Assembly: GCF_030463535.1 (NCBI RefSeq)
Contig: NC_132893.1
Location: 21,312,027 to 21,376,026, forward strand
Origin: Salminus brasiliensis
Taxonomy: Eukaryota; Chordata; Actinopteri; Characiformes; Bryconidae
Reading direction: 5' to 3'
Length of the DNA: 64,000 bases
The translations under genes and the position numbers were made by a program. The notes beneath the pieces are model-generated. The model saw nothing but the letters and a program-made list of their open reading frames with translations, ran no database searches and was not told the origin of the DNA. Positions 19,222-64,000 of this stretch are shown here, piece after piece. The number at the start of each line of letters is the position of its first letter. Position 1 is the first letter of the stretch.

Positions 19222-22200
19222 TCAGCATCTGTTGTAGTAAGTAGTTGTGCTCTGGCTGCTGTTGATCCTGCACGGGACTGGCTGGTGGTTCCCCAGTGTT
19301 GAGTATGTGTCAAACTGTCCTTGAGAATGCGGCGAGGGCTGAGACCTTTCCGCAGGAGGCCGTGAATGGGTCCTACATCTTCCTATAAGGATAAACTACA
19401 TCAGTATTTAGACATTGCTTTTAAATATGCTACAATTACTGATGTGGAATTGTACACTGTATGTCCAAAAGTATCCAGACAGCCATTTTAATTAATTCAT
19501 GTCCATGAATTCAGTTGTGCACAAACAGCCTGTATAATCTCCATTTAAAAGCACTGTCACTAGATTAGCAGATCATGACTTCAGCTAGAATGGGAAACCC
19601 CCCTAACTGCATAGAGGACCATCTATGGGTGAACAAGGCACAACGTAATGTGATGGTGCCTGTAATGGAACAACAAACCACAGGAAGACAACATTACTCT
19701 ACATGCACGCAGGAAGCTGGCAAAAGCTCAACTTACTGAGACAATGACAGTGGACTGCAATCACCAAGATAGTCCCTGTCAACACTGCACTGGTGATGCC
19801 TGTGATTATGAGCAGATCTGTAAAAATATATTTTTTAATTAGTGTAAATGCAACTGGTTTGGGGGGGGGGGCAACGCAATCTCTGTGTAAAAACTGTGTG
19901 TGGAAAATCATACTTGTTCCCTGTTCCTCAGAGCACTCAGTGGAGGACATGTTGACGGCGATCGGCTGGTTCAGAGACGAGTGATTCACCCAGCAGCTGA
20001 ACATCACCTGTCTAGTTGTGTGTGTCAGTAGCTGAAGGTACGATGAGAGGCTGTGGGATCCATCTGTGTTGATGCTGGAGTTCCAGTGAACAGCAGAAGT
20101 GTTCAGGTGCTGTGTCTGTGTGTCTGTGTGTGAAGTGTTCAGGTAGGTGATAAAATCTCCATCTCTGATCCAGGCCTGCTCCACAGCAGCAGGATAGAAA
20201 CCCTCAGAGGTGCAAAGAGCTGTGGGAACTCCATCAGGCCCCTTCACACATGACAAAGACACTGCTGGACGAGCTGAAATATAATGAGGAATAAAGTACT
20301 ATTTTGTGGACAAATTGCCCCTACAGTCTGGAGGCTGTGGATAATTGCAAGGTACATAACACTTTTCATTTTCATAATACACAATATGTATCACAACATT
20401 TAACATTTGCAATCAAGACAAATATTCAAGCAAAACAGAATTTCCACATTTAAAAATATCACTGATTATTAAAGTATTGATAAAAACAGATTGGTATTGG
20501 CATCCAATCCAAGCCTACAACTATGCAGTAAATGCAGTTATTGTACAGTGAGCCCCATGTTACTGTACAGTCATCACTATAGCATGCAGCTAGATACCTA
20601 CATATTTAATTGACAGTGGCACTTGACAATGTTTATTCACACGCTAGAATGTTTTCAGTGTTTGAGGTGATTATGCTATTAAACACAAAGACTGTTTAAA
20701 AGTTTAGAATGGCTTCCTAAGTATGTTATGCTGTAATGCTGTCAATCAAGGGTCATTTAAGACATAATATGAGTAAACATGCAAATTCCGCTTTCATTGT
20801 TTGAATTGGAAACCATCCATTATGCAAATTTGTTTTTGAATTCAGATTAAGCAGTGAATCCCCAATAGCTAAAAATGTTAATAATAATAATGGTAATAAT
20901 AATAATAATAATGTTAGAAATCTGTAATCGAGTTATGTGAATACAGAATGAGAATGAGGATTAAATTTTGGAGAAGGTAATATACACGTGAATGCCATAG
21001 AAGACACTTTTGGTTCCATAAAGAACCATTTATGTAAATGAAATGTGTGAAATTTGAAAGAATCTTCAAAACATATAAAGATGTTTTTTATTTCAAGGTT
21101 CTTCACTCTCACACATTTCTTTTAAAAAGAGGTTCTTTATGGAACCAAATATGGTTATTTTATGGCACTGCTTAAGAAACTCTTTGCAGCAGTATGTAAG
21201 AGTCTAGTGTTTCACTTCAAAGAATTATAGAATTAAACCTGGTTAGGTACAGTGTAAAATATCACAAACCAAAAACAAGTATCAAAACAAATACTTTGTA
21301 CTTGTTTTTTTATTTTTATTGCTATAAAACAATTATATATATTGTGACATATTGATATATTGTGTATTATGAAATTATCTTCATGTCATATTGCCCATCC
21401 CTGCACTAAAGTCTCTGTGACCTCCACATGGATTTAGCTATGGCTACATTCAAAATATTTAGTGCCAAAAATTCAGATTTAATCAGAATAAGAATCAGCA
21501 AAAAATAGCTTATCTTTTATTCACTGCCTTGAAGAATCTGAGGTTTGTTTATACATACCATCTAAAAATATGAATGTTAATGGCAAGACGCTCTGATGTA
21601 GTCAGCAGGTTGTATATCTTTGTATATCAGTATCATTGCTGTGTATGTGTTACCATTTAAATGAATTACTCATTTTCCCATCAGAGTCTTAATATACATT
21701 GTTTTCTGTCCCTGACTTTTTTCATGTACAGAAAACATCTGTTTTATACATATAGGATCATGTAAAGGTTACAGAAAGCTACAACATGAATACAACGTGA
21801 ATTTCTTATTTTAAGGAGAAGTTTCGAACTAGCAAATGTAAGCATTCTTACCGATCATGTGAATGAATGTTTTTTTTAATCCCAGACACTTTACAGGAGG
21901 GGGTACATGTCTCTCCACAGCACACTTGTAGACACCAGAATCATTAAGCTGAAGATTCAACAGCTCATAGGATATTTCCTCTGTTTCTGGGATCCAGATT
22001 AATCTGATGTTGTCTTTACATGATTGAATGTTCCAGGATTTATACTGATAAATATATGAGCACAGTGACCGTTCCCTACTCAAAATAACTCTAAAAACTT
22101 CCCTTTCAATTGTTTTGTTGTAATCACAGTTGATGATGGTTGTCTTTCCCTGATGAACGATGTGAGTCGTATTGTCTGTCTGCACGGCTAAAAGAATTCA

Positions 22201-22785
22201 GTTAAAGAAGAGAAATATCAGTATGTATGTAAAAGCATCATCTTTATATAACTATGTTCCTTACAGAGGCTCTGATATGGCAGTGTTAAGACTTTTCATT
22301 TCTAATAACTACATACAGTGGCCCCAAATTATATTAGACACTTTAATCATTTGACATTTGGTGAGCTTGATGAAGATGTTCTTTAGGTTCCCATTACTTT
22401 TATTAAAACACATCAAATCACAACAACAGACTGATAGAGCACTGTTGAGCATAGATATGGAAGGGTCTGGTGTCTAAGTTAATGTGTATTGAAGGAATAA
22501 TGTAGTCAGATGTGCCCAAAGGCATTTTGGATGCAAACCTACAGAAGTCTACATAGAAACAGCTCAAATAGTATAATGATCTGAATCACACCAGCTGCCA
22601 GCTACCAGTTTAAAACATTGTCTTGGACAAGTCTGATTAAAATGAGATGAAATGAGATATTATGGTAATATTAATGAAAGTATACATGTATTTTACATAA
22701 ATGGAGAGTGAAATAAATACTTGCCCGAGAGAAAAGTCAGAAGCATCCACACAGAGCAGAGCAAACAGGAACACTGTACATATGT
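19222..22785 (-). CDS. receptor A1: CD28-like V + C1 Ig receptor, start codon probably damaged
   Basis: Exons in transcript order: signal-like about 22785-22728, V 22187-21852, C1 20273-19914, TM 19817-19737, tail 19382-19222 with stop. Phases agree from V to tail (about 312 codons). The V domain has the B-strand Cys (IINC), a second pair (SLC and QSC), the F-strand Cys (GVYKC), then RHVPPPVKC. It lacks the C-strand Trp, as CD28 and CTLA4 do. C1 has CTSEGFYP and FSCWVNH. TM is roughly LLIITGITSAVLTGTILVIA. The tail of about 53 residues contains FDTYSTLGN and ends YYNRC. The signal exon lacks an in-frame ATG compared with A2 (extra bases after the ATG) and ends in a GC donor, so A1 is a pseudogene or uses an unseen first exon. 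Closest relative: A2. Function unknown; a lymphocyte surface receptor is inferred. Confidence 0.65.
20274..21851 (-). other. A1 intron between V and C1
   Basis: AT-rich intron with a short (TAA)n run near 20878-20912 and a hairpin MITE at about 21004-21160. No exon is seen. Confidence 0.6.
21004..21160. mobile_element. hairpin MITE (GGTTCCATAAAGAACC ends)
   Basis: TTTTGGTTCCATAAAGAACC at about 21008 is mirrored by GGTTCTTTATGGAACCAAA at about 21131. Related ends occur at 56475-56700 and near 52360-52480. Confidence 0.65.
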
Positions 22786-22899
22786 CTATAAACAAAACAG
22801 AAAGCAGGGTAACAAAAGCTTAAATCTGTCTGTTTAGAAAGCTAAGACAAATATGTATTGCACTGATGAAGACCAATATCGTATCACTATCATGCAAAA

Positions 22900-23130
22900 A
22901 CCTTGGATCTGCATCTTTGGCATTTGTTCACTTTTTGACATAATGTGAATCTGGCAGATGTTCTTTATATCGTGTCCAAATTTATTGATGAATGTACCAA
23001 TAGAAATGCTTCAGAATGACTTGCCGTAAATTCTTTTTAGATTGACTTCCATTGAAAGTTAAGGAGGTATTTCCCTTCTCCTGTAAAGTTGACATTTTAA
23101 AGATGTAATGTTTTTTGCATGACAGCGACG
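22900..23130 (+). repeat. R1 repeat copy
   Basis: Contains ACCAATAGAAATGCTTCAGA and TTCTCCTGTAAAGTTGACAT. It is homologous to the intact R1 element at 57891-58097. Confidence 0.6.
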
Positions 23131-26093: not shown

Positions 26094-28395
26094 TCAGTTT
26101 GTGTTGCTGGAGTACATGATTAGAGAAGAGTGTGGAGATGCTAAGATGATGTGTGGAGATGCTGAGATCATGTGGAATTCCACCTGATGAAGGAAGATAA
26201 AGGATACGGGTGAAAGTTAGAGACAGTCCAGGAAAATTCCACAAGAGAGATATACTCAGGTAAACCCTCACCTGAGAGAGTTCAGATGTTTTAGTCCCAT
26301 CAGATGCAGACTTCAGACAACAACATCTACCTGAAACAACAATGTCAAATAACGAATGACTTCATCTCAGCACTGAAACTGCTCTACAAGCCTCTACACA
26401 GCATTACAGTCAGGAGACGTTCATTTGCGTTAATCCTCAGTAATGTAAACTTACTGAAGCACAGATAGGGAATGTCAGTGACGAAAGAAATGCCAGTCAA
26501 CACACCAAAGCTGATCCCGGCCACTATAAAAATCACTCCTGCAAATAGAGGAGGACCAATATGAACGCCACCACAGTAAAATAACAGAATCAGAGCAGTC
26601 CGGAACTCTTACAGTGAAATGAAGCTTTAAAGAGAGACACTTTAACAGAAGTGATGCACTTAAGGAATACAGGAACTAGAACAAACTCCTAAACCCATCA
26701 TAATTTTCTCCTTTCTTTTCTCTCCCCTATCTACTGAGCTGCCCACTTCTGTCTGCCTGCTGCTGATACAAGTCCATTTATTGGATCCTATCATGCTATA
26801 TTACCCCCACCCCAAACATTTTCCTGAAATAGTTGAAATAAGGTGCATTACACATGCTCACCTGTCAACTCCTCTTCTTCCTCAGAGCACTCAATGGAGG
26901 ACATGTTGACGGCGATCGGCTGGTTCAGAGACGAGTGATTCACCCAGCAGCTGAACATCACCTGTCTAGTTGTGTGTGTCAGTAGCTGAAGGTACGATGA
27001 GAGGCTGTGGGATCCATCTGTGTTGATGCTGGAGTTCCAGTGAACAGCAGAAGTGTTCAGGTGCTGTGTCTGTGTGTCTGTGTGTGAAGTGTTCAGGTAG
27101 GTGATAAAATCTCCATCTCTGATCCAGGCCTGCTCCACAGCAGCAGGATAGAAACCCTCAGAGGTGCAAAGAACTGTGGGAACTCCATCAGGCCCCTTCA
27201 CACACGACACGGAGACTGCAGGGCGTGCTGCAGACAGAGAGAGACAGAGAGAGAATCTGTATTTTAAGTGAATGCTGAAGATCTTTCCAGTAAAGAGCCA
27301 AACTACAAAACTACTGACTTTTCAGACAGTACAGTTGTAGGGAACAGGTGCAATTCCTGTGGATCTGTTTGTGGAGGGTGCAAGTAAATACTATTCCCCA
27401 GTCAAAAAAAGAAGCTCTCCAGAAGAGGTTCTTATGCAGAACCTGATGCCAAGGTTCATGGTTTTCCTACTATGGTAGGCTACCATTAATAGGCCGGAGA
27501 TTCTTTATTGACCTGGCCAATCTACTCATCATAAGGAACACACAATAATTAAGTAATTAGTGAATGTAATTAGTGAGGAGAGTTTGGGAATAAAATGTTG
27601 ATTAAAGAACTGACATCTTGATAGGTGCCAATAATGATCTAGTAATCATATAGTGAGCCAGTCCTGAGTAGGAAAGGGGGTGCGATCGACTCGACTCGGC
27701 TAACTGACACTGAAGACAGCAGAGCTAACAAAAGAACTGTAATAAATTAATATTATCTAAATATCAAAGAAATGTTATTAATAAAAGGAAAAAAAGATTA
27801 CTTATTATTATAGTTTCATGTAAGAAATACTAAATGGTAGTCACATTACATGTAAGAAGGCATGGCTGTTTGTTTATCTATGAAAAAATCTTATTTCTTA
27901 CCGATCACATGAATGAATGTTTTCTTTAATCCCAGACACTTTACAGGAGGGGCTACATGTCTCTCCACAGCACACTTGTAGACACCAGAATCATAAATCT
28001 GAAGATTCAACAGCTCATAGGATATTTCCTCTGTTTCTGGGATCCAGATTAATCTGATGTTGTCTTTACATGATTGAATGTTCCAGGATTTATACTGATA
28101 AATATATGAGCACAGTGACCGTTCCCTACTCAAAATGACTCTTAAAACTTCCCTTTCAATTGTTTTGTTGTAATCACAGTTGATGGTGGTTGTCTTTCCC
28201 TGATGAACGATGTAAGTCGCAGTGCTGTCTGTCTTCTTCACAACTGAAAAAAAGCAGTTCAAAGAAAAGAGATATATTAGTCTTACCCCTTATAACTGTG
28301 TAGAAGATGTACAGAAGATAGTGTAACACTACAGGCCAAACCTTCTGAAGAAATTAAGTTTAAACAAAAAAGAAGAAAAACATCTTATGTAGATA

Positions 28396-28463
<68 letters not shown>

Positions 28464-28962
28464 CACTGAAGGGTTCGAGTTCTGCTGAAAAAGTGAGTTT
28501 TACTCATGCTGATTCTACAGCAGAGGTTTATTGTAGCTTTCATCAGACGTGTAGCTTTCATTTAACTCTTGCATCAGATTAACCTGAACATCTGATAAAT
28601 CCAATCAGGTCTTAAATTATGAGACTGCAAAACATTTTTAGTTTGTATAAAAGAAGTTTACTTCAATGGCCTAAACACTTTTTCTACTGTTTATGAAGAT
28701 AAGAAAGAAAATGTGTTTAAGTTTAAGTTTAATCTTTGATCTTAATCTTTCATCTTTTAAAAAACAACCAAAATATATATTTTTCATAAACTAAGTAAAC
28801 ACTGCAGCCGTAATGTAATTCCATATTAAAATATCCATATAAAGTGAATATATTTAGGCTATTTGTCAGGATTTGAATAAATGAACAGTGAAACAAATGT
28901 GTGTGCCTACCTGAGAGAAACATCAGAGGCATCCACACGGAGCAGAGCACACAGAAACCCAT
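26094..28962 (-). CDS. receptor A2: CD28-like V + C1 Ig receptor, complete
   Basis: Exons in transcript order: 28962-28911 (signal peptide MGFCVLCSVWMPLMFLS), 28243-27902 (V), 27227-26862 (C1), 26538-26455 (TM), 26330-26272 and 26183-26094 (tail, stop TGA). They sum to 993 bp (330 aa) with consistent phase-1 domain junctions. The V domain has Cys at TINC, SLC, QSC and GVYKC, then RHVAPPVKC. The first proline of the loop is Ala, against Pro in A1. The C1 domain has CTSEGFYPAAVEQAWIRDG and FSCWVNHSS. TM (VIFIVAGISFGVLTGISFV) is followed by an Asp, then a Cys-rich juxtamembrane RCCC. The tail ends LIMYSSNTN. V and C1 nearly equal A1, but TM and tail differ. V-C1-TM is also the B7 layout, so a B7-like ligand is the main alternative. 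Immune function is inferred. Confidence 0.75.
28402..28461. repeat. (TA)n microsatellite in A2 intron 1
   Basis: About 30 perfect TA units between the A2 signal-peptide and V exons. Confidence 0.95.
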
Positions 28963-35454: not shown

Positions 35455-38400
35455 TTAGTTCTCGTAGATGCACTCTTCTCTCTGAGCCTGACATTCACCC
35501 TGTGGGTTGGGCCTGGGATTCACTGTAGAATTGGGACCAGTGCTAGGTCTCGATGTGAAGAAATTTAAGTTCTCATAGACTTTATTGCTGAAGACTATAG
35601 AGCCTGAGCGATCTTCTTGCTTTCTACCTGTCTCATCACACATACAGAGACACACAGAGACATAGAGAGAGAGAGAGAAAGAGAGAGAACAATTATATAT
35701 TTATAAGAACAATTATAAGAAAAATTATATTTTGGCATTATTGGATCTTACTCCAGCTTTAGAAATAGTTAACCATGAGATTCTAATCCACCATATTGAG
35801 AACGGGTTTAGCCCTTTAAGTACAGTTTAGGTTAAGTATAGTTTTATATAAGTATATAAGTATAAGTATATAAGTATAGTGACAAATATGTGCAACTTTA
35901 CCTTTACCTTTAGTCATCCCCAATGCTTGATTTATTGAGTGAGTGCCACAAGGTTCAATTTAAAGGCCTTTTCTTTTGTCTTTGTACATTTTACCTCTTG
36001 GTAATACGATCAGGAATCACAAGGACTTGTGATCTTGGGTAAATTACAGAAAAAAGAATCCTCTTTATGTTTTTAACCTTCTTTAAGCAAATCTTTAAGA
36101 AAGCTCTCTAATACTCCTAACTGCCAAATATAAATAGCTACTGTACTGGAACACTCGCTCATTTACTGTTTTGTCCAAAATCAAGGATATTAAAAAGAGT
36201 TTGTCCTGCTTTTGTTGGAGTAACTGTCTCTACTGTCCAGGGGAGGCTTTCTACTGGATTTTGGAGCATTACTGTGATGATTTGATTGCATTTAGTTACA
36301 GTTGCATTAATGAGGTCAAGATGTTGAATGATCACCACCTCACCTCATCCTCTACAACCCAACTCAACCCAAATGTATTGGATGGAGCTCCAACCATCAT
36401 TTCAAAGAACAAGAACCCACTGTTCCACAGCTCAATGCATTAATTAGAGGGGGTGTCCACAAACATTTGGACATACAGTAAAGTTAGTAAAGTAAGATTT
36501 AAAAAGGACAGCTTAAAGTGCATCTGCCAAAGGCCAAAACTGCTACATTTGGGCACATCTGAGGTCTAGGTATCAGTCGCTAAATGGTGCTTCACAATGT
36601 TTGGCTTGGTCTCTAGGTTCTACTAGCTGACCTAACATATCAGTTATAGATTGTGGGCCACCGAGTGATGTATAGACCAGTAGCAGCACTTTAAAAGCTG
36701 CCAGTATAATGTTTTTAGAACTGCAGGAATGTTCTTCTCGTCCTGTTTAAACTCTTGCAGCAGTGGTTTGAATAAGCTGGAGCTGTTTAAGGCTCTTTTG
36801 AGTCCAGTTAAGAGGCCATAACAATAGTCAATGCTGCTGGATGAGTTTCTCTAAGTCTTGTGGGGACACCACTGATTCTGGCTATATTGTTAAGATGATA
36901 TTTTAAAGCTGTTCTGGAGATTGCTTTAATTATGGCTCACTAGTCTATTAGAACAATATTTCTGACCTGGACTTTAGTTTTTAGAGCTGTGGTTTCAAGG
37001 TGTGTGCCAAGTGTCTTTATTTTTGTTGCCAAACACAATAATCACTGTTTTGTCCATATCCAATTATTTTTGTGTTCCAAGCATTGACACACTGAGTCCA
37101 TAGAGCTGCAATTATCTGGTGATAGAAATAGTTTTATCTGTGTATCATCAGCATGACTGTGGTAATCAGTGTTGCAGTTCTGAAGGAAATGGCTCAAAAA
37201 AAGCACATCTTCGCAGTCACGCAAAACCTTGTATTTGTATGGCAATTTCACACACTGACACTCACACATTTTGACACACTATAAACAACTCCCAGATTCC
37301 AGTTATGTGAAGAAGTGGAAAAATTGCAGAACTGCAAATGTGAGGTTTTTGTGTGACAGCAATAATGTAGAGATGAAACAAAAAGTGCCCAAAAAAACGA
37401 TACTTGGGGGATTCCATATGCCATAGGCATCCTACTAGGTTTATAACTGCCGAAAATAGAAACAAATTTACTCCGGCCTTCTAAATAGGACCTGAACCTG
37501 AAAGTGAGGACTGTCCCGGAAAGGACTGCACACTTTTCCAGGCGCTTTATAAGTACTCTATGATCTATGAGTCAAATGCAGTGTAGGACAAATTGTAAAC
37601 TTAGAAACTTTGCATCCTGCCCTGCTGCTCTGTTTACTCCCCCACCTTAATGGCTTTTCCACTGTATCTGTGAGTTTTGTACATAGGTGTTATTCATATG
37701 TAGTATATAGCCTCTGTTATCTGTATAATAGCCTTATTACTTCATTCATCGTCTTACTATACCATTAATGAATCCATCTTTCACCAACATGAAGTTTAGC
37801 CTGCTGGTTTGCAATCTTGTCAGAATATTCAGACATTAGTCACATAACTTAATCTATATGAAGTCAAATGAAAACAATAATTATATTCACACAACTGTTG
37901 TTGGGCCGGGTTCCCGGGGAATGGGTATACAGGATTAAAAAACCCTACAGCAGCATGCCTGTCATTTATTAGATCCTTTATGAGAGCAGTCTGGCTGTCC
38001 ACTAGAACAGTGGTGGGGTGGGAAACATGACTAAAACTTGTCCAACTAGCAATTTAAACGGAAAAAAATGACAGAGCTGCTCATAATAATATTAGCGGAC
38101 CAGCTATTGTACCACTACTGGACAACCGCTAGCCAGTTTTGATGTGGGCAGGGTACCAGCAGTGGCGGCAATATGGCAGAAGCTGGGGTGTGATGGTTTG
38201 TTCCTTTGTGGTACACTCTCTGATCATTTTAAAACCAACACATACCCTCACCCTTCTGATCTGATCTGATTACATATACAACTGATTTCAGATATAACTG
38301 ATATCTTCTAGTTAATCATCGTCTGTCTGCTTCTGACCACAGAATCTCTGTTGACTGAATATTATGTTAGTTGCAGGATATCCTCAAGCCAGCATTGACA

Positions 38401-38816: not shown

Positions 38817-41800
38817 CTCTTAATAAGTCCTAACAAGAAAAATATATGAAAATGGAATTCAATACATTTTGGAACCAAACCCATAAGATTTTCTATGAAT
38901 ATCAACAAAGTGTTTTTTAATTTAAGACTAATTAACACAGAGGAAGTAGACTTGGTGTGTTTTGGCACTTGGAGCTGTAGCTAAACTTGAAACTAAAAGG
39001 CCACCCACGTGGGAAAGATAAAAACATCACACCAGATCTGGCCTTGACATAATAAGACAGAGAGAGAGAGAGAGAGATCAGAAGGCCTGAGAACAAATGT
39101 CAGCAAGAGGTGTTGAACAGAGGGTGGAGGACAGTCACAGTTTCCTCTTTGTAATTCTCCAGGAAATTCTGGTATTTTTTTTTTTTGTACTGTACTGAAT
39201 AAGTATTGCCTCAGATAACAGTGATGTTCATTTCTGAACATTTGCTTCCACAGGCAACAGGCCTTAAGAGCAGTGGGTTTGCCATATTATTATATTGTGC
39301 CAAGATGTTGAGAGGATTTCTGTTTGGTTTCTTTGCCAAAAAAATTGCCCACACTGGTGAGCACACAGCAATTTAGATACGGCACTAGATTAACAAGAAT
39401 GTTGTAATGAAATGAAATGCTTGCCATTAATAAAACAAGCCATATTACCACCCCCCCCCCAAAAAAAAAAAAAAAATAGAGGTATAAAAATGTAAAAAAA
39501 GTAGAAAAATGAGAGGGTATTAATACAACAATGATGATATGAGCCCTCACCTTTAAAGCAGGCGATGCTGAAAAGGAGGATGAGGAGAAGCCCCACGCAG
39601 CCACCAATAATCGAGGCAATCAGCAGCCAGGGTATTGTCGAAGTCCCACTGCACCCTGAAAACACACACAGAATGACTGAGTGGGTCTGACGGTGGGGAT
39701 CACAAGAGCTCTGCAATACAGTGTTATGATGACATTTTGTGGTTTTGTTACATTTATTATATTAAAATCTACCTACAAAAGAGGATCTCCAATTTGTCTC
39801 TAATAGAACTTCCTCAGTGATTGCAGAAAACCACAGTTATGAAGCAGACAAAGCAAAACTGTCCTTTTTACATACATAGCAGATGCTCTCGTCCATCTCA
39901 TCGCAGACAATATTATCTACAGTGATTTACTCTTGTCCGTGTGATCTTATTGGCATAGCAGTTGTGCTTTGGCCTGGACACGGAATCACACCCTCGTTTC
40001 CCAGGTGTAGGCCGGATGCGGTTCTCCACTATTTCCTCTTCAGAATTCCCCAGAACATTCTTAGAACTCTTTCTCTAAACATGTGGATGAGGAAACTACA
40101 ACAGAAATAACCTCAACCTCACCCACATCCAACATGAGCAGCTCAGTCACTACAAGGCCTCAGCAGAAGGAAAGTAGAGAGTCTGACCGTACTCAAGGAA
40201 TTTTACTTTACAGTGTTACTTTTGAAGATTTGTACTCTACTCAAGCTCAAACTCAAATAAATACCTTTGCATTTACTCAATTACATTTCCAAAATATCTG
40301 TTCCAAACAATTTTTCAGGGCTTTTTTTCAGTACATTAAACTCCATCCAGTAACTGGATGACCTTTAAGTGCTGAGAGTTTTTTTTTTCTGAAATGGTGA
40401 AATCTGATTTTAGCTACAGTGCATCAGCCAGCAGGACTTGTGTCACTCAATAATCAAAAAAATACATTTAAAAATGATTGGAAACATTTAGTCCTGATCA
40501 GCTCTAGGTTAGATTTTTGTTGATTCTTGAATTAGTTTTTGTTTTATTTTAATACGAGACCAGTTATGCTGTCTTGGACTCACAGCTACAGATGGCTATG
40601 GCAACACCAGGGATCTAACTGGTGGTCCTCCCATAATGGTGCCGACGCAAATAAAACCTGTGCCTCTGTGCATCAATATTATTTTACCCTTCAAACATAT
40701 TACTGACTTTCTGATTTCATGTGAGATCATTTTGGGTTGTTACGGGGTGGTAACAACCCAAAACATTTCTAGCAAATTGTTGTGCCCATGCAAAAATATA
40801 TATGTCAGTGTTTGCTGTCTTTCGCTTTAATAAATGGACCAATAGAATTTCAATATATATATATATATATATTTTTTTTTTTTAATTAAAGGTTAGTAGG
40901 ATTTTTCCTTCTCCTGTAAAGTAGATTTTTTGGAGACAGTTTTTTATTGTCCCAAAATTAACTTTGATCTGAAATGTAACAATTTATTTACTTCTTTATC
41001 TTAAAATAAATCTTTTAGTGTAAGTTACAATCCATTTGCTGACTTGCCTTGAAAGTCATTTGTTAATTTTTTTACCAAGTAAATGCAGAGGGTAAAGTTA
41101 CAGTGTGCTGCATTGTCAACACTGGATAAATAGATTTTCTGTTACTGTGAACGAGGAAGGACACACAGTGTCACTGATGCAAAGCATCACTCTTTTTTTC
41201 TGTGCTCTGTGAATTTCTTCACTGTGATATGTCAGGCATAAGCCTGACACTGTTACCAGTACTATGACCAGCAGCAGCACTAACACTGCTACTTCCTTTT
41301 GCAAGAGTATGTGTGCTGCTGGGAGGGTAGTGGCCTCTGACTTCATTGAGGGCCAGTTGGATGTCCTAATTCTGAATTTCTCAAAGCTTATTGTGGTTTC
41401 TGCTTGTCACACAGTTTATGTTTATGTGGAAAAATGCTGCAGTGGTTATCTACTATCAGAGCGGTTGAGTAAACATGCCTCTGTGAAGAAAGAGAAGATG
41501 AAACCAACGGAAGCTTGTGTGACCAAGCAAGTACCCAGCCTTACGAAGAAGTGACTGTTGTCTAAGAACAGGAGTCTCTCTACACAGTCAGTAGGCTTAA
41601 CTGAAAGCCTGATTTGAACAGTACTTGTAATGGCACTTCCAAATCAACACACAAGAACGGCTCACCGTCGCTGCATGTGAGTGTGATGTTCTGGCTGTAG
41701 AGCGTGTGGTTGCTGGAGTAGCTGGCGTGACAGATGACTATGTCTCCTTCAGTCCAGTGCGGCTTGCAGAGGTGCAGCGTGCTATTTAAGCCAGTGGGGA

Positions 41801-44800
41801 TGTTCTGGTGAAGAAGCTGCTCAGATCCTCTGGTCCAGGTGAAGTTCACCTGCTCTGGACTCAAACCCTCCAGAGAACAGAGCAGATCCACACAGCTGAG
41901 ATCACTGCTGTTCATCTGCTCTATGATAAGACCCGCTGAAACTGAGAGGGGACAGTGTTCAGTAGACAACACCAGGCTTTAGGAAACTCACACACACAGA
42001 ACTTGTGGAACTTTACAGAACATGTGACAATAATGTATGACATATTAATTATCATAAGAGAAAAAGAGTGTAATCATCAGTACCTTGAAGACTCAGGACT
42101 AAAAATTTCTCCTCTGCTGGTGGGGGGATCACTTTGGTCACAGAACAGTTATAAACACCAGCATCGCTGCTTCTCACATCAGTTATAATCAGTCCGATAG
42201 GTTCTTCATTTACTTTAAACCGAGACTTGCAGTTGTGGCCACTAGTCTTGTTTTTTTCTAAAAAATATTCACAGAGAGCTGACTCTCCATCCTTTTTCCA
42301 CTTAAAACTAACCTTCTCACTGGTTGGAAACAGTGAGGGACACGGCAGGACGACACTCTGTCCTCTGGACACTGTAAAAACTTTCTGTGCACCTGCAGAG
42401 TAAAAAAGGGGGTTAGTGTAATGTAGAGTACTGGGATGAGGAAATGCATCCTGGCCAAGGCTAAAAACCTCATATGAGGGTTTTATACAGACCTTCATAA
42501 CATCTACATTTCCACTTAAGCACTGCTCCCTATAGCCATCACAAGAACACATAGGTACTTTGTCTGGATTTGTACGGCCGCTGCTTACAAACAACAGTGT
42601 ATAAACAATACTCTTAAAAATAAAGGATCCCCACTGGTACTTGGAATAAGTATAATGTTCTAGGTAAGCTCACAATTGATAAATAACTGTTACACTGCGC
42701 TAACTAGTTTGCAGTGTTGGTAAAGGCTGTGTTTCTGCACTCTCTACCACAGTATTTACAGAACAGTACACATTTAGACTGCTCTCATAATGACTAGAAA
42801 CCTAAAGCAAGGAAGGCAGATAGGGCATTAGAACTTATAGAAGTGCAGAGCATTCTTTAAAAATTAGAGTGACGCGAATACTGTGTCCTACACCTTGTCA
42901 GAGGTCTGACAGACGGTCTCTGAGAGTCAACAGCTTGTGTGATAGGCAGCTCACATGACAACACCTTGTAGTAAAGCTTAACACTGGACCAAGTCTCTGT
43001 GCCAACTGTGGAGAGAAGACTTGTAGCTGCAGGGCTGACAGGTGGAGTGGCGGTATGATAGTCATTGCTAAGATGTCAAAACAGTGCAAGCAGACTTGCC
43101 TGGGCCATTTTCTTTTTCAACTGTCCAATTTGTGTCTGTGAAAGATGTAAGACAAATGGCTTGGAACGTTAGCAGCAGTGGTGAAGGCAGTCGTCTGGAA
43201 ATCAGTCATTTTTCCAGGTAGGTGGTTCTAATGGTTAAAGTGAACCTTGATGAACTTAGATGAACTTAGATGAACATTCTACGTGCAGCTTGATCTTTAT
43301 AGTTCATCCTAAAATGAACTATAAAATGAGCAATAACTGTGTTTTAATTATGTCATTACAGTATTTACATGATTTACAGTAAAGATTTAATGAAGGTCAA
43401 GACTGTGCTTATGTTATGAAATAATTCTGTATTAATTCTGTGTAAATGCCGAAATCCAGGTAGTCCCAAATGGGGACTCATTACCATCACAACCAGTTTT
43501 GTGTTGGTAACGACTTCTTATGACAATGACAATTTTGTTTTTCAGGAAAAACAGATCCCAGATCAGGTAGATGGTTAATGTTTAAAATGAAACCTAGATG
43601 AACTTAGATGAATCGTGATCATTTTTTACACTTAGTTCAATCTGCCATTTTATTTCTTAATCTGCATGGGTCGTCTTTGCTCAGATGCTGGCCTGCTTGC
43701 CAGTTTGCAGGTTGATGTCGGGCCAATTGCAGTAAAATTTGTCACAACTGCCAGCGTGATTCTTTTTTACCAGTCCCAGTACAAGTTCTCTGACAGCTCT
43801 GATCTCCCAGTTAAAAAAACAAACTGTGTAGTAAATCAGTCCTCGCTAAACAGTACTAATCAGGAAGCATAACCACATTAGACATGTACTGATAAAACAC
43901 AAACCAACATGGCAAAAAATGAATATAACCAAGGCACAACCACAACTGTCTGCACTGGTAGATCACAAACCAACGTGCCAGAAAGGGAAATTTCAGAACT
44001 TAATTTCCTCTACTTTAACAGTTCTGCACTGTACATCTCTGCCAACCTAGAATTAATTACAGATTCTCTGTTTGAATATTGAACAGTTGTTCAGTACACT
44101 GTACACTTTGTTGAGGGTTTTTTTTTAGAACCATGACGTCTTGATGATTTAGATGCTTAAATGGTTCTTTGGCTGGTTACTGTGTTCTTCAAATGGTTCA
44201 ACAGTGCACCAAAAAGGTTTCCACGAACATTACAAGTCAAATAACCCTTTAGACTTCATGTACTGTCAAAAACTGTACTATAGTTGATGCATTCTCTGAT
44301 CTCTGTAATCTAATGTGTTTTAATACTTGTACTCCCAGTCTCAGTTATGCCGCATTACTGCCTACTGTTTTCATTTTAGTTGTAAAATCTCAAACTGGTT
44401 TACACAAGAATAAGGGGTGATTCCTTAATCAGGGGCCCATTTTGCCATCTTAACCTTTGTTTTAATTATGTCTAGACAGTGTTTACATGCTTTATAGTAA
44501 AGACTTCATGAAGGCCAAGACTGTGCTTATGTTATTAAATAATTCTGTATTAATTCTGTATTAATGCCGATATCCAGGTAGTCCCAAATGGCCCACTTTT
44601 TCCTGTGCTCTCTAAAGCTACTGTCTTATGGCCATATTTTCTGAAAAACAGTGAAAAATAGTTTTAGGCAGTTTAGTTTGCATTTAACTTACAAGTAAAC
44701 AGTCCAAAGTGAAACTGATAACTTTGCATACCATCACAACCAGTTTTGTGTTGGTAATAATGACAATTTTCACTTTTTTAGCAAAAAAATCTCCCAGATT

Positions 44801-47800: not shown

Positions 47801-47996
47801 ATCTGTCAGGAAACAGTTGAACGCTGTCTATTACCAGGCAGTTCACATTAGTTACATCAAGAACACTATACTTGGGCAGCAGAAGCACCACAATAATCAA
47901 GCTGGTAGCACAATACAGTGTCTTACCTGAGAGTGAAGCAGAAGACAAAAGAAAAAGTGGTATAAAATAAGATGAGTACAGATCAACAGCGAACAT
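35455..47996 (-). CDS. receptor B1: CD28-like V + C2-like Ig receptor with YEN tail, complete
   Basis: Exons in transcript order: 47996-47927 (signal MFAVDLYSSYFIPLFLLSSA), 42392-42084 (V), 41941-41666 (C2-like), 39655-39551 (TM), 35627-35455 (tail, stop TAA). They sum to 933 bp (310 aa), all junctions phase 1. The V domain has B-strand Cys VLPC, C-strand Trp FKWKK, a second pair ALC...HNC, F-strand VYNC, then SVTKVIPPPAEE. The second domain has LLCSLEGLSPEQVNFTW, HLC and VICHAS, a short C2-type domain with an extra Cys pair as in CD2/SLAM-type D2. TM is IPWLLIASIIGGCVGLLLIL. The tail carries NKVYENLNF and C-terminal CIYEN. YxN fits the GRB2-family SH2 consensus; neither site is a strict ITIM. 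The 5.5-kb first intron holds a tandem array. A surface immune receptor is inferred. Confidence 0.75.
35738..36015 (+). mobile_element. L2-like LINE reverse transcriptase scrap (+)
   Basis: Translates as LLDLTPALEIVNHEILIHHI and, after an insertion, VPQGS...PFLLSLYILPLG with a stop. These are LINE RT motifs. The intervening 35870-35925 carries a SINE tail (GTGACAAATATGTGCAACTT). Confidence 0.7.
36205..36480 (+). mobile_element. second copy of the 9325-9775 element
   Basis: TTGGAGTAACTGTCTCTACTGTCCAGG through CCACAAACATTTGGACATAC matches the riox2 intron copy with an internal deletion. Confidence 0.7.
36490..37300 (-). mobile_element. L2-like LINE reverse transcriptase relic (-)
   Basis: On the - strand HADDTQIKLFLSPDN is the decayed (Y/F)ADD catalytic motif of LINE RT. 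Further on, LQEFKQDEKNIPAVLKTLYW matches the C-terminal LINE region. Several stops. It lies in the last intron of B1. Confidence 0.75.
37301..39550 (-). other. B1 last intron, remainder
   Basis: AT-rich. Contains (GT)n at 38770-38812 and a short (GA)n at about 39057-39077. No exon is supported. Confidence 0.5.
38770..38812. repeat. (GT)n microsatellite
   Basis: About 20 GT units on the + strand. Confidence 0.9.
40795..40955 (+). repeat. R1 repeat copy
   Basis: Contains AATGGACCAATAGAATTTCA, a (TA)n insertion and TTCTCCTGTAAAGTAGATTT, as in the R1 body. Confidence 0.6.
41223..41315 (-). CDS. alternative TM exon in the B1 locus
   Basis: 93 bp, phase 1 on both sides, acceptor CCCTCCCAGCAG| and donor CACA|GTGAAG. 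It reads AHILLQKE then VAVLVLLLVIVLVTVSGLCL and TYH, a clear membrane span. It sits 350 bp downstream of the B1 C2-like exon. Its length equals the B3 TM exon and its phases equal all other TM exons here. It could be an alternative TM or a leftover from a neighbouring gene. Splicing to the tail at 35627 would stay in frame. Confidence 0.45.
43340..44830. repeat. pair of direct duplicated blocks about 1.1 kb apart
   Basis: 43345-43600 and 44457-44800 share AAGACTGTGCTTATGTTAT, ATCCAGGTAGTCCCAAATGG and CCATCACAACCAGTTTTGTG in the same order. The second copy has an insertion of about 150 bp. Confidence 0.75.
45113..45370. repeat. block duplicated at 48353-48595
   Basis: Both copies share ATAGTATTTCTAAC, TGAATAAAGAATCA and CATCTTCCAGAGTTTAAG in order. 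They lie either side of the B1 signal-peptide exon. Confidence 0.7.
45370..47440. repeat. roughly 250-bp tandem array in B1 intron 1
   Basis: AGAGGTTTTGGAGC recurs at about 45382, 46146, 46720, 46970 and 47228. Shared unit parts are CCCAAATGCTGAGTTTGGAA, GCCCAGCCCCTTCACAT and GGTTCCTTAGTAGTTCTAGG. The last two periods are about 250-258 bp; earlier ones are stretched by insertions including a SINE. Confidence 0.8.
45448..45660 (+). mobile_element. tRNA-derived SINE
   Basis: A box TGGCGCAACAG at 45452-45462, B box GGTTCAATTCC at 45511-45521, and the fish SINE/LINE tail AAGTCGCTCTGGATAAGAGC followed by GCTAAATG. Inserted into a tandem-array unit. Confidence 0.85.
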
Positions 47997-52150: not shown

Positions 52151-55121
52151 GAGAATAAATTAAATATATTATCCAAATGACTGTGATGGAGCTGATGAAG
52201 AGGCCGATCCAGAACAGATGAATAGCTGTGAGGTGAGGTGAGTGAGGTGAGTCTGAAAGTAGACAAAGTGGACAACATGTGAACAATACATCAGCAATGA
52301 CTCTGAATCTCAAAAAGCATCCTGAATATGAAAAGGCAATGGAAGCTTAAGTAAATACATTTGGGTGATGCCATAAAAGAACCACTTTTGGATTGCAGAA
52401 GAATCATAAGTGTGTGTAAAGAATGTTGATGTAAAGCTTCTTAAGGTTTCTTCATACACTCATACTCGTAAAAGTTATAGAAATTGAAAATATTGTAAGG
52501 AAATGAGATTTGTGTTTTTTTAAAGGAGCAAAGTCAATGCTACCGTTCATAGTGTATGATCAGGGGTCAGCGGACCTAAAACTCAACATTTTTTGTGTTG
52601 CAAACTACAAAAATGTATGCAAAAGTAAAATATTTGGAGTCTACAAAAAAGTTCATAAATGTATTTAATGCTGGTATATTTTCAATTCTAAATTTGACAT
52701 ACACTCATAATGGCACTCGTCAATGTCATGTTGGCTATTGCTGAATTCTTTACACTTTTTGTTTTCTGGGTCAGAAAAAAACAATTTTGGTGCTTAAAGT
52801 TTGTTCTTTTTTTTCCCCTGAAACTAACACAGTGTCAGTTATACCTACATGGTCCAAAATACACATACAGCACACCTAATGTTTGGTTAAATGCCCTTTA
52901 GCAAGTTGTACCTTCACCAAATGCTTTTGGTAGCCAACAACAAGCTTCTGGCAGACTCTGGTTGGATATTTGACCACTGTTCTAGGCAGAATTGTTAAAG
53001 CTCTGTTACATTGGTTAATTTACTGGCACAATTCATGGCAGGTCTGTGCTTTGGTGGCTCTTGAGTTGTTCCTGGCCCTCTGAACTAATTTCCTGTCAGC
53101 TGAGGCTGACGGTTGGGATCTTTCATCACCACTGAATTAATAATAAACTAAATGTGTGTATGGATATTTTTGACCCTGTGTTCATTTCACAAATCCCCCC
53201 AAGATTGAAGACTTGTTTTTCTATTAAAGATATGTTGGACACTTATTCTGCCCCAGAATAATTTCAATAAATCACTGAAAGCCAAATAAAACCATGACAT
53301 GTATGTCCATAATAAGTGTATGTGAACATCTGACTCTAACTGTATGTTGATAAACTTCATATCACAACTTTCCTTATGTACTGAGCTGTGATAGAATGTG
53401 ATACATTTATGCCACCATGGGGCAAGTGTAATTTCTTGCTGTCTGCAAGGGCTCAGATTTCTTTAACAGATTAAAATTGCCCACCTTTATCTGTGCGTGG
53501 AAGTGTGATGTTCTTGCTGTAGAGCGTGTGGGTGCTGGAGAAGCTGGCGTGGCAGGTGATCGTGTCTCCTTCTGTCCAGTGCGGCTTGCAGAGATGCAGT
53601 GTGCTATTTAAGCCAGTGGGGATGTTCTGGTGAAGAAGCTGCTCAGATCCTCTGGTCCAGGTGAAGTTCACCTGCTCTGGACTCAAATCCTCCAGAGAAC
53701 AGAGCAGATCCACACAGCTGAGATCACTGCTGTTCATCTGCTCTATGGTAAGAACTGAGAGGGGACAGTGTTGAGTAGACAACACCAGGCTTTAGGAAAC
53801 TCACACACACAGAACTTGTAGAACTTTACAGAAAGAACACGGTAAACACAGTACTGCTGTCTGACTGAAAGTAAAGTGAGTGACAAACTGGTCTTAATTA
53901 TTGACTGTCAGTAGACACAAGAAAAGAGAAGAAGAGTGTAATCACCAGTAACTTGAAGACTCAGGACTAAAAATTTCTCCTCTGCTGGTGGGGGGATCAC
54001 TTTGGTCACAGAACAGTTATAAACACCAGCATCGCTGCTTCTCACATCAGTTATAATCAGTCCGATAGGTTCTTCATTTACTTTAAACCGAGACTGGCAG
54101 TAGTCACGCTTAGTCTTGTTTTTTTCTAAAAATTTTTTACAGAGAAATGACTTTCCATCCTTTTTCCACATAAAACTAACCTTCTCACTGGTTGGAAACA
54201 GTGAGGGACACAGCAGGACAACACGCTCTCCTCTGGATGCTGTAATAACCTTCTGTGCACCTGCAGAGTAAAAAAGGTGATTATTGCACTATAAAGTACA
54301 CATAGCTTGAGGAAATATGTCTGTCTGAAATATGTCACACACCATTACCATCACCATTACACAATGATAGTCACAGTAATCTTTTCGTAATCTTTAGAAT
54401 GTTGTATATACACTAAAAACTACCAAGAAGAAATCTGCATTTGTCTTGGGTAGGGGTGTAACGAGACTTGCTTTCATGCAAAAGGCATGAAACTCACACA
54501 CAATGGACACACAGTGAACAGGCTTACATGGCTAACGCACATAGGTATCAGTGCCACAAGAGCGCAGAGGAAAGTAATTAACAGTTGGTGTAGCAACAAG
54601 AGAGCAACAGCACCACCTTTTTAGCTCCATTTATGGCCAACTTAAAAATTCATAATGAATGGACCAATAAAAATTACTTGGAATGGAGTTTTTTTTACAT
54701 TGATGGCCAATAAAAGTTTTTTTTTTGTAAAGTCGCCATTTAGGAGATCATGACTATGGCGTTACAAAGGTCCCTCTGGATGAGACCACCAGCCAAACGT
54801 CGCTTCATGGACCTAAAGCTGAGATTCGTAATGCCATAGTGCAGGCACATCTGTAGAGGACCTATAGTCAAGCAATTAACGTCCGACCCCTTCATACACA
54901 CTCATTTCCCAAGCTTCTTAAATCGTTTTTGGGAGTAATAACACAAGCAGAACTTTAAACAGAGCTAGACTTACGGTCACTCTGGATTTGTGAGGACATT
55001 GTTGAACACAGAACATCAGATGTTTAAAAGGGGAATTAACTTGAATGGTCCTACCTGTGAGTGCAGCAGAAGATACCAAGATAAAACCAAGAAGAAAATA
55101 CGATAACCAAACTGAGAACAT
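52151..55121 (-). CDS. receptor B2: CD28-like V + C2-like Ig receptor, tail unresolved
   Basis: Exons in transcript order: 55121-55055 (signal MFSVWLSYFLLGFILVSSAA), 54260-53946 (V), 53754-53485 (C2-like), 52252-52151 (TM). They sum to 754 bp, ending phase 1 into an unresolved tail. V keeps LLC, FMWKK, the extra pair FLC...DYC, VYNC and VTKVIPPPAEE. The second domain keeps LLCSLEDLSPEQVNFTW and ITCHAS. TM is LFWIGLFISSITVIWIIYLI, unrelated to B1 but similar to B3. The V exon uses a donor six bases further on than B1 (G|GTGATT), adding two residues. Ectodomain near-identical to B1. No stop codon could be assigned, so the 3' end is open. Confidence 0.65.
52253..53484 (-). other. B2 intron between C2-like and TM exons
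   Basis: Contains MITE-type ends near 52360-52480 and a possible transposon relic at 52930-53125 (TCCTGTCAGCTGAGGCTGAC). No exon. Confidence 0.45.
54645..54745 (+). repeat. R1 repeat fragment
   Basis: ATAATGAATGGACCAATAAAAA with TGTAAAGTCGCCATTTAGGA, matching R1. Lies in B2 intron 1. Confidence 0.5.
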
Positions 55122-60300: not shown

Positions 60301-60735
60301 AGACTCTGGGCAGCACTGGGCAGCTCCTTAAGCATCAGACTGCTTCACCCCAAGTGTGTGAAGGAGCAGTATTGCAGGTCTTTCCTTCCTGCTGACTCTA
60401 CAACCAGCACTGCTCCCAGCAGACCAGATACACACGCACTTACACAAACTCTACACACTTACAGGAAATAGAGCGCCTTCAATGTAACATTACAATGTGC
60501 AATATGTTTCTCAGCCCCCTCATGTGCAATTAAGGGTCACTGTGCAATTATCTGTAAATACTCTGTAAATAATATTGAGTTTTTGACTTTTATTGTTTGT
60601 ATTGTAAATGCACTGCTAATTAATCGACTTTTTTGTAACTGAGTGTCTTGCTATTATCCCTTAGCTGCTGTGACACTGTGAATTTCCCCACTGTGGGACT
60701 AATAAAGGATCATCTTAACTTATCTTATCTTAAAT
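60300..60735 (+). mobile_element. LINE 3' end
   Basis: A region reading HPKCVKEQYCRSFLPADSTT in the LINE C-terminal style is followed by a 3' UTR ending GTGAATTTCCCCACTGTGGG, ACTAATAAAGGA and (TCTTA)n. Typical of fish CR1/L2/Rex-type LINEs, 5' truncated. Confidence 0.75.
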
Positions 60736-60910
60736 AGGGCGTTTCTGTGTGCTCCTCTCGTTAATACAGTATTTCCAACATGACTTTAGGGCAGAATTAA
60801 TAATCTATTCTTCAAGAAACTGACTCCAGTTTAGCAGTATGAAGGATTTAAGTGAAGAAAAGAGAGAGAGAGTGACTAAACTGAGGGAGAAGCAACAGTT
60901 TGGGTCTTAC

Positions 60911-61536
60911 AGGAACAGATACAATACAGTATCCAGATTAATGAGGTGATGATGATGAAGCTGATCTGGAAGACATGGATAACTGGACAGAGGAGAGGGC
61001 ATTCTGAAACAAGACAAAATAGAAAACATAACATAACAACAGCTTAGCAATCATTTCAAGATCAGGGTCAAGCCCCCAAGAAGCCCACATGCCTCATAAG
61101 CCCACTCACACTCACTTTTTATGTGAAGTATTTTACATTTCAAATATAAATCATTTCTAAAATGCTGAGCGTCTCAGTTGTAAACATCGTCCGTGTCTGT
61201 TACAGTAATTCTGAGCCAAAGTAAGTCTTTTTAGCTTAAGATCTTTGTGTCAACATGAAAACTGTGATTTCAAATGTGGCTTTGGAAAGAATTTTCCGTT
61301 GGAAAACAAGGCTAATGTTGAGAATAATCAGGGGTGTAGTACTGAGGGTAATGATGCATCTGACTAACCAGGGCCCTCACTGGATGGGGGCCCCAGAGGC
61401 TTTGAGATGTTTAAAAGGTTTCTCATGCTCACACTCTTTTAGAAATGTGACTATGAGTGTACTATGACATTTTCAGTTTCTCTGCCTGTGGTTTCTATTA
61501 AACGCCCCCAACCCAAACTCACCCAACCCCTCCTGC

Positions 61537-61582
<46 letters not shown>

Positions 61583-63049: not shown

Positions 63050-63086
<37 letters not shown>

Positions 63087-64000
63087 TGTGTGTTCACTAC
63101 CACAGATGGGTTAAACGCGGAGGACCCATTTCGCTGTACAGTGACAAATATGTGCACCTTTACCTTTTTTTTTATATATCTCATGTATGCAGTTAATAAA
63201 CTCTTATTTTACATTGACTTCCATTCACAGTTAAAAACAGATTTGCCTTCTTTTTTTTTTAGAGATTTGACAGCAAGAATATTTATATATAAATTATATA
63301 AATACATAAAAATTTACAGTATTCGGGTATTTAATACTTTTTGTACATCCTAATTTACAGCCTTCTAGAGTGATTTCTGTTTTAGTTAAAATGACCCACC
63401 TTTATCTGTGTGTGGGAGTGTGATGTTCTGGCTGTAGAGCGTGTGGTTGCAGGAGTAGCTGGCGTAGCAGGTAACCATTTCTCCTCCTGTCCAGTTTGGC
63501 ATGCAGAGGTGCAGCATGCTACTCATTTCTGTAGAGAAGCTCTGGTGAAGAAGACGCTGCTCAGATCCTCTGGTCCAGGTGAAGGTCACCTGCTCCGGAC
63601 TCAAACCCTCCAGAGAACAGAGCAGATCCACACAGCTGAGATCACTGCTGTTCATCTGCTCTATGATAAGACCCGCTGAAACTGAGAGGGGACAGTGTTC
63701 AGTAGACAACACCAGGCTTTAGGAAACTCACACACACAGAACTTGTAGAACTTTACAGAACATGTGACAATAATGTATGACATATTAGTTATCATTATTG
63801 ACTGTCAGTAGACACAAGAAAAGAGAAGAAGAGTGTAATCACCAGTAACTTGAAGACTCAGGACTAAAAATTTCTCCTCTGCTGGTGGGGAGATCACTTT
63901 GGTCACAGAACAGTTATAAACACCAGCATCGCTGCTTCTCACATCAGTTATAACCAGTCCGATAGGTTCTTCATTTACTTTAAACCGAGACTTGCAGTTG
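60911..64000 (-). CDS. receptor B3: CD28-like V + C2-like Ig receptor, partial at window edge
   Basis: Exons in transcript order: V from beyond 64000 to 63843, C2-like 63681-63400, TM 61003-60911. The V part keeps the second Cys pair region, VYNC and VTKVISPPAEE, where the first loop proline is Ser. It uses the B2-type shifted donor. The second domain reads LLCSLEGLSPEQVTFTW, HLCMPNW and VTCYASYSCNH, with one extra Cys. TM is VIHVFQISFIIITSLIWILY, related to B2. It ends phase 1; the tail is unresolved and the signal peptide is outside the window. Confidence 0.65.
61542..61579. repeat. (GA)n microsatellite
   Basis: About 18 AG units on the + strand. Confidence 0.95.
61668..61777. repeat. perfect palindrome, 50-bp arms, 10-bp loop
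   Basis: The left arm 61668-61717 (AAACACATTAGCTGCATTAA...) is the exact reverse complement of the right arm 61728-61777. The loop is AGGGCTGCTC. GTAAAGTA flanks both sides (61661-61668 and 61781-61788). Confidence 0.95.
62857..63170 (+). mobile_element. tRNA-derived SINE inserted in R1
   Basis: A box TGGCTCAGCGG at 62867-62877 and B-box-like GGTTCGCAC at 62911. The body has CCTTGAGCAAGGCCCTTTAC and two TG microsatellites; the tail is GTGACAAATATGTGCACC and T-rich. Flanked by R1 sequence on both sides (62833-62856 and about 63175-63260). Confidence 0.85.

Follow-up and report, generated by a model that had tools for sequence, protein, structure and literature searches.

Tandem V-C1 receptor genes of Salminus brasiliensis, with V domains of probable CD28 kinship in the type A members

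The window analyzed here is a 64-kb stretch of the Salminus brasiliensis genome (contig NC_132893.1; C16:21312027-21376026 in our numbering of a 1.07-Gb genome), and it contains five genes with two immunoglobulin (Ig) exons each. The minus strand carries all five V exons, which we name A1, A2, B1, B2, and B3, and a C1-set exon follows each of them. From the sequence, we predict a tandem array of five type I membrane receptors with the order V, C1, transmembrane segment, and cytoplasmic tail. On the reading that we consider probable, the V domains of the two type A genes are of CD28/CTLA4/ICOS descent, and those of the three type B genes are more ordinary V-set domains that share two hallmarks with them, namely a second Cys pair and a proline loop at a fixed distance from the F-strand Cys.

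Gene models of the array

Phase 1 introns flank the V, C1, and transmembrane exons wherever these were read. The features are listed below by gene in window coordinates.

22725..22773, minus, A1 leader-like remnant (uncertain), resembling the A2 leader
21852..22187 (in-frame stretch 21850-22188), minus, A1 V exon; VPPP in the FG loop, C-strand Trp lacking, second Cys pair with a spacing of 14; splice signals AG and GT, phase 1-1; Pfam V-set 31.7 and V-set_2 24.4 bits
19914..20273, minus, A1 C1-set exon; Pfam C1-set 27.6 bits, splice signals, stalk Cys (TECSEEQ)
19737..19817, minus, A1 transmembrane exon; hydrophobic stretch LLIITGITSAVLTGTILVIAV, splice signals, phase 1-1
19223..19382, minus, A1 cytoplasmic exon to the stop codon; in frame after the transmembrane exon, proline-rich, DTYSTL and TYYNRC
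28911..28962, minus, A2 predicted leader exon (MGFCVLCSVWMPLMFLS); ATG, hydrophobic core, CAG/GTAGGC donor, phase 1
27902..28243 (in-frame stretch 27900-28244), minus, A2 V exon with VAPP loop; Pfam V-set
26862..27227, minus, A2 C1-set exon; Pfam C1-set 30.2 bits, donor found, acceptor CTGCAG by eye
26455..26538, minus, A2 transmembrane exon; splice signals, frame by eye
26272..26330, minus, A2 candidate first cytoplasmic exon; splice signals only
47927..47996, minus, B1 predicted leader exon (MFAVDLYSSYFIPLFLLSSASLS); ATG, hydrophobic core, CAG/GTAAGA donor
42084..42392 (in-frame stretch 42085-42396), minus, B1 V exon; VIPPP in the FG loop, C-strand Trp retained, second Cys pair with a spacing of 14; Pfam V-set 46.2 and V-set_2 14.1 bits
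41666..41941, minus, B1 C1-set exon, Ig heavy-constant-like; Pfam C1-set 20.9 bits (cut-off 21), splice signals
39551..39655, minus, B1 transmembrane exon
35455..35627, minus, B1 cytoplasmic exon; KVYENLNF, C-terminal IYEN
55055..55121, minus, B2 predicted leader exon (MFSVWLSYFLLGFILVSSAALT)
53953..54260 (in-frame stretch 53953-54264), minus, B2 V exon; Pfam V-set
53492..53776, minus, B2 C1-set coding stretch; Pfam C1-set 24.3 bits
52151..52252, minus, B2 transmembrane exon
63850..63999, minus, B3 V exon, 3' part, with VISPP loop; cut by the window end
63407..63703, minus, B3 C1-set coding stretch; Pfam C1-set 20.1 bits, slightly below cut-off
60911..61003, minus, B3 candidate transmembrane exon; splice signals, coordinates by eye

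B1 is open without a stop from its leader (47996) through the V, C1, and transmembrane exons to the stop codon (35455), a chain of five predicted phase-1 exons with good splice signals. In A1, the V, C1, transmembrane, and tail exons share one frame. Its leader-like stretch does not begin with an in-frame ATG and ends in a GC donor where GT is usual, so that A1 may be impaired. The donor site that follows the V exon of B1 is altered in B2, where by eye a GT 6 nt farther on is the likely donor and keeps the frame. The complete V exon of B3 spans C16:21375876-21376187, with the half that holds the first canonical Cys beyond the window, and the fragment inside the window scores 20.6 bits with Pfam V-set, below the cut-off of 26. 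A preliminary description of this DNA had set the array at 21852..64000, a span whose start falls inside the A1 gene and which omits the A1 C1, transmembrane, and tail exons at 19223-20273.

The second C domain reported in that description is borne out in all five genes. The Pfam C1-set cut-off of 21 is passed by A1, A2, and B2; B1 (20.9 bits) and B3 (20.1 bits) lie slightly below it, and the B1 exon is in frame and spliceable after its V exon. Compared with known structures, the type A C1 domain matches C1 domains of the major histocompatibility complex (MHC) best, with B7-H6 (6yjp) among the 60 matches listed, and no further close copy of it was found in the genome, where the next match has an expectation value (E) of 0.077. 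For the type B C1 domain, a search with the copy from B2 brought up Ig heavy constant domains, those of IgA foremost. Both type A copies have a stalk Cys (TECSEEQ in A1, IECSEEE in A2), and in CD28 and CTLA4 the stalk Cys links dimers. The tail of B1 holds KVYENL and a terminal IYEN, and the tail of A1 holds YSTL and YYN (TYYNRC).

V-domain features and ectodomain exons

The canonical Cys pair is present in all five V exons when the first Cys of B3 is counted from beyond the window. The second Cys pair, 14 residues apart and previously described for the four full V exons, likewise extends to all five once the outside half of B3 is included. The first Cys of this pair, which is a candidate for a second V-domain disulfide, aligns with that of CD28; the spacing is 14 residues, as opposed to 20 in CD28, 18 in CTLA4, and 19 in L010, an exon at C8:13.26 Mb that we take as this genome's CTLA4/CD28 on the basis of its IFPPPY and GNG motifs and its score of 80.1 bits with a profile of human CD28, CTLA4, and ICOS. 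In human CD28H (TMIGD2), the second Cys spacing is 14. The alignment also upholds the six-residue spacer between the F-strand Cys and the proline loop, which is the same in CD28, CTLA4, ICOS, and L010. The loop itself reads PPP, as first described, in A1, B1, and B2 (3/5); in A2 it is APP and in B3 SPP, in a register identical throughout. Type A has no C-strand Trp, also as first described, and type B retains it.

This pairing of features was rare among 46 further V exons taken from the genome, two of which have a comparable Cys pair, eight a Pro at +7 or +8, and only one, L010, both. Among the 45 panel exons besides L010, only L054_1 has a second Cys pair of this kind, and its proline loop is absent. 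The panel is not a random sample, because its loci were selected through similarity searches with A, B, L010, the type A C1, and related queries, and it includes near-copies; the V-set search of the whole genome gave 2252 candidates, of which 150 places were listed. Type A also has an extra Cys past the proline loop (PPPVKC; 21850-22188) and a further one early in C1 (SLSC; 19933-20274), and these two could form an interdomain bond.

Ectodomain exons are closely alike within each type. Over aligned codons, A1 and A2 are 94.7% identical in V (dS 0.09) and 97.4% in C1 (dS 0.08), the latter with a ratio of nonsynonymous to synonymous rates (dN/dS) of 0.15 from 9 changes. The matching stretches (19924-20276 with 26878-27230, and 21845-22182 with 27895-28231) are BLAST matches that end at or near the exon ends, and none of the four intron flanks compared aligned above shuffled sequence. 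The V and C1 exons of B1, B2, and B3 (41676-42431, 53471-54299, and 63386-64000) are 88-98% identical: B1 and B3 share 98.4% in V and 89.8% in C1, and B1 and B2 share 93% in both, a mosaic of the patchwork kind that conversion would leave. B1 and B2 also resemble each other in the short intron between V and C1, and their V 5' flank is slightly above shuffles; the C1 3' flanks of B1-B2 and B2-B3 are not. No BLAST match at E 1e-4 was found between paralogs in the transmembrane and tail regions, where by eye the A1 and A2 transmembrane segments are related yet diverged and that of B1 is unlike those of B2 and B3. Since the ectodomain exons are alike and their flanks mostly do not align, the simplest reading that the sequence suggests is gene conversion limited to the ectodomain exons, as is seen in paired receptors. 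The V exon of B2 has dN/dS of 1.3-1.4 with B1 or B3, from few changes. Several of the V differences between B1 and B2 (42085-42396 versus 53953-54264) fall within the loop of the second Cys pair (ALCEYFLEKNKTSGHNC versus FLCKKFLEKNKTKRDYC) and none in the proline loop.

Kinship of the type A and type B V domains

When the Pfam V-set_2 (ICOS) profile was run over the genome, A1 was its best match (23.6 bits, E 0.045) and L010 the next (22.8 bits, E 0.077), in a search that listed five matches of seven first-look candidates, none above the curated cut-off of 28. Per protein, the scores were 24.4 bits for A1, 21.4 for A2, 14.1 for B1, and 13.6 for B2, all below that cut-off, with no match in the B3 V fragment. 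The positive controls scored 46.0 (human CD28), 23.8 (L010), and 20.4 bits (human CTLA4), and no match was obtained with any of nine further V exons from this genome or with human TMIGD2, PD-1, CD80, and PD-L1.

A profile built from CD28, CTLA4, ICOS, and L010 placed the five exons at ranks 1 to 5 of 54 (A1 30.6, A2 26.4, B1 23.0, B2 22.9, and B3 19.5 bits), directly followed by a CD28HL-like exon at 19.3 bits. With the human-only profile and 55 targets, L010 came first, A1 second, and A2 third, and when one human member was left out of the profile, type A ranked 3 and 4 of 56. Masking the inner Cys and FG-loop prolines of A and B left A1 at 2 and A2 at 3 of 54 with the full profile. Human PD-1 and TMIGD2 ranked 46 and 28 of 54, so what the profile detects is the branch of CD28, CTLA4, and ICOS rather than the family in its entirety. 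Searched against the genome with the A1 V exon, only B1 and B3 besides A1 and A2 fell under E 0.05. Mouse-type CTLA4 chains were among the Ig domains that matched the B2 V exon, at E 0.004-0.006. A single-sequence phmmer search with A1 found CD28 and CTLA4 at E of about 0.07-0.2, behind T cell receptor (TCR) alpha and SCN3B; its fourth place, 4n8p, bears the entry name 'Uncharacterized protein' and is presumably platypus CTLA4.

The trees agree with the profiles on type A. The maximum-likelihood tree had 45 rows, after 13 of 58 had been dropped on the basis of their name prefix because they were near-copies or additional exons. In it, A1 and A2 group with CD28, CTLA4, ICOS, and L010 at support 96/88. 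The clade of A with CD28 was recovered at 95/87 without ICOS and, when the extra Cys and FG-loop residues of the A, B, CD28-family, and TMIGD2 rows were masked, at 93/93 (not starred). Type B falls with or near the exons L030 and L035 with weak support. Topology tests rejected none of the groupings A+B+CD28 (approximately unbiased test, p-AU 0.454), A+B (0.308), B+CD28 (0.281), and A+CD28+CD28H (0.53). As the rows are short and several long-branched, we treat the trees as support and not as proof.

By profile and by tree, and not by pairwise scores alone, the type A V domains are thus most similar to CD28/CTLA4/ICOS, which supports a CD28-related origin for them. The preliminary description had proposed an undescribed CD28-related branch for the whole array. 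Its proposal is supported for type A, which follows the CD28 lineage in tree and profile and prefers the ICOS and CD28-family profiles over the B7 and NITR-like ones. The evidence is divided on type B, which loses most of its profile affinity once the motif is masked and groups elsewhere in the trees, although membership with CD28 is not rejected there. To call all five genes one CD28 branch exceeds the evidence, because only the motif residues of type B are CD28-like.

A number of observations weigh against our reading. Type B ranked 5, 6, and 9 of 55 with the human-only profile (B1, B2, and B3, after the CD28HL-like exon) and 5-12 of 56 when one human member was left out. Once the motif residues were masked, the full profile ranked type B only 26-28 of 54, and with the human-only profile type A dropped to 7 and 8 and type B to 25-28 of 55; since masking lowers the ranks, the CD28 signal of type B, and part of that of type A, lies in the motif residues. 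Pairwise z-scores of A1 to human PD-1 and to a TCR V exon were as high as to CD28, and the V exons of the genome nearest to B1 belong to non-CD28 genes, with A1 only tenth. A profile of A and B together matched pIgR best in the PDB, then Robo and contactins; the 60 matches listed include NITR and PD-1 chains and not CD28. A CD300/pIgR-like profile (49 targets) ranked B2 6, A1 10, B3 12, A2 14, and B1 18. In the masked tree, the position of type A within the CD28 group had very weak support (83/6), and the second Cys pair is not spaced as in CD28. By eye, there is no YxxxxT in the transmembrane segments and no YxxM in the tails, which are partly incomplete; the tails of B2 and B3 were looked for and not found, nor was a convincing leader exon for A1. 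Structure models of A1 and B1, made from five sequences each, reached a mean predicted local distance difference test score (pLDDT) of 38.

A competing account, a real possibility that we find somewhat less persuasive, makes type A alone CD28-related and type B an unrelated V-C1 family whose hallmarks arose by convergence or by conversion from an A neighbor. The masked ranks of type B, its place near L030 and L035, and its nearest V exons in other genes all fit such an account, as do its C-strand Trp and its different C1 domain, Ig heavy-constant-like as opposed to MHC-like in type A. What speaks against it is that A and B lie in one cluster with the same intron phases, the same V-C1 order, and exactly the same 14-residue Cys spacing, that B1 and B3 are the sole other genome matches to the A1 V exon under E 0.05, and that the A+B+CD28 clade is not rejected. 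The low rank of type B is also compatible with membership, as PD-1 and TMIGD2, at 46 and 28 of 54, are members according to the text of a 2024 survey of the family (PMC11599192).

Judged by NITR-like and CD300/pIgR-like profiles and by Pfam Receptor_2B4, the array is unlikely to be part of one of the described innate receptor families of fish (NITR, CD300/pIgR-like/NILT, DICP, or SLAM). A NITR-like profile, small and from one locus, did place type B at 6, 7, and 9 of 53, and the CD300/pIgR-like ranks and the pIgR and NITR matches in the PDB point the same way; the NITR-like and CD300/pIgR-like labels of exons from this genome were assigned by eye. Type B also matched Pfam Receptor_2B4 weakly (B1 17.3 and B2 15.0 bits, below the cut-off of 21). 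Type A, however, ranked only 35 and 40 of 53 in the NITR test, and the one panel exon besides L010 with a second Cys pair has no proline loop.

A B7-family or other V-C1 ligand of the butyrophilin or B7-H6 type, with CD28 motifs by chance, is improbable and already weakened as an explanation: V plus C1 is the B7 architecture, and the type A C1 domain is best matched by MHC C1 domains with B7-H6 among the listed structures, but a B7 profile of two sequences only (CD80 and PD-L1) ranked type A 29 and 32 and type B 19, 21, and 24 of 53 (19-32 overall), and CD80 and PD-L1 themselves had no V-set_2 match. Nor are degenerate, nonfunctional copies likely, for despite the doubtful leader of A1 and the missing tails of B2 and B3, the five exons of B1 are open and well spliceable, no V or C1 exon in any of the five genes is interrupted, and the C1 exons of A1 and A2 differ with the low dN/dS given above.

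Relation to known families and possible working

Two genes neighbor the array on the minus strand, a TIP41 family (TIPRL-like) gene at 14434-15541 and a JmjC_2 domain gene at 8814-10763, the latter presumably RIOX2/MINA-like. On the plus strand, 1287-1481 is a Ricin-type beta-trefoil exon (25.5 bits, cut-off 29) and probably a piece of a larger gene. The stretch 17287-17790 is repetitive and open on both strands with alternating dipeptides (SASARA, VLVLVP); it is probably a tandem repeat and no gene.

The CD28 family comprises nine members with a single V domain each in the text of the 2024 survey, where it is defined by its IgV-transmembrane-cytoplasmic structure, by motifs in complementarity-determining region 3 (CDR3) and the tail, and by synteny (PMC11599192). 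The survey thus agrees with the earlier statement that known CD28-family receptors have a single Ig domain, and in its text it did not reveal the origin of the family (PMC11599192). Measured by its definition, the array has the proline motif at a conserved distance from the F-strand Cys, with the full PPP in 3/5, and has a C1-set exon behind every V exon in place of a single IgV; the TIP41 and JmjC_2 neighbors are absent from the marker genes in the survey's text (PMC11599192). Under the single-V definition given there, the array is not CD28-family. No two-domain CD28-type receptor could be recognized in the literature searched, from titles and the opening lines of abstracts in a library without most subscription journals and all preprints.

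The likenesses to CD28, CTLA4, and ICOS are several: a second Cys pair past the C strand, a proline loop separated from the F-strand Cys by six residues, and, in type A, the V fold without a C-strand Trp and the stalk Cys. Unlike those receptors, the genes described here add a C1 domain, have a Cys spacing of 14 and not 18-20, and lack the Tyr after PPP, the YxxM tail, and the G-strand GxG. The B7 family shares the architecture of V, C1, and transmembrane segment; the two human V domains used have no FG proline loop, and the V domains of the array rank poorly with them. NITR, CD300/pIgR-like, and NILT receptors are likewise clustered fish receptors of the Ig superfamily with varied tails, but type A ranks low with the NITR-like profile, and in CD300 and TREM types the second Cys pair lies elsewhere in V.

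CD28H deserves separate mention. Like type B, human TMIGD2 has W.KDG followed by LC and a Cys spacing of 14. We examined on these grounds whether type B is the CD28H ortholog and rejected it: human TMIGD2 had a single significant match in the genome, at C6:45.68 Mb (E 2.7e-4), with none in the window and no type B exon, and the free tree keeps B and TMIGD2 apart. That place, L069 (C6:45676600-45684600), holds two CD28H/CD28HL-like V exons (YYC..WQELP and YYC..WQDVP, with GSGTELRV) without a second Cys pair. The text of the survey describes a YxN tail motif in CD28H, which B1 shares, YxNF in teleost CTLA4, and a CD28HL3 motif, a hydrophobic residue followed by Pro at +6/+7, that fits A1, B1, and B2; CD28H and CD28HL1-3 have a single V domain, unlike the genes of the array (PMC11599192). 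It also places cd28h of channel catfish and other siluriforms in a different genomic context, which could in principle be this locus (PMC11599192); that idea is weakened because human TMIGD2 finds C6:45.68 Mb and not the window.

A CD28-like working of the array can at most be inferred, as can its ligand, dimerization, signaling, and cell type. The V domain might contact a B7-like ligand through its proline FG loop, with the C1 domain as a membrane-proximal spacer that would lift V off the membrane. The stalk Cys of type A could form a covalent dimer, as in CD28 and CTLA4. The tails may give co-signals, and YENL and the C-terminal YEN of B1 would be YxN sites of the Grb2/GADS type; for DTYSTL and TYYNRC of A1, too, we can only infer a meaning. 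Because the V and C1 exons are alike across copies and the transmembrane segments and the tails found differ, one ectodomain probably serves different outputs, perhaps with stimulating members next to inhibiting or decoy partners, like paired receptors.

One might go further and see in these V-C1 receptors the surviving form of an ancestor of both the single-V CD28 receptors and the V-C1 B7 ligands. CD28 would then have arisen by loss of the C1 exon, and the form kept here would have turned into a paired-receptor array with homogenized ectodomains and divergent tails. We regard this ancestry as a long shot. On the reading preferred here, in which the type A V domains descend from the CD28/CTLA4/ICOS lineage, the joining of a CD28-related V domain with a C1 domain would broaden what counts as the CD28 family. 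The V-C1 array would offer a concrete comparison for the kinship of CD28 receptors and V-C1 B7 ligands, and a shared ectodomain with differing tails would make it a paired co-receptor system that can be tested in fish.

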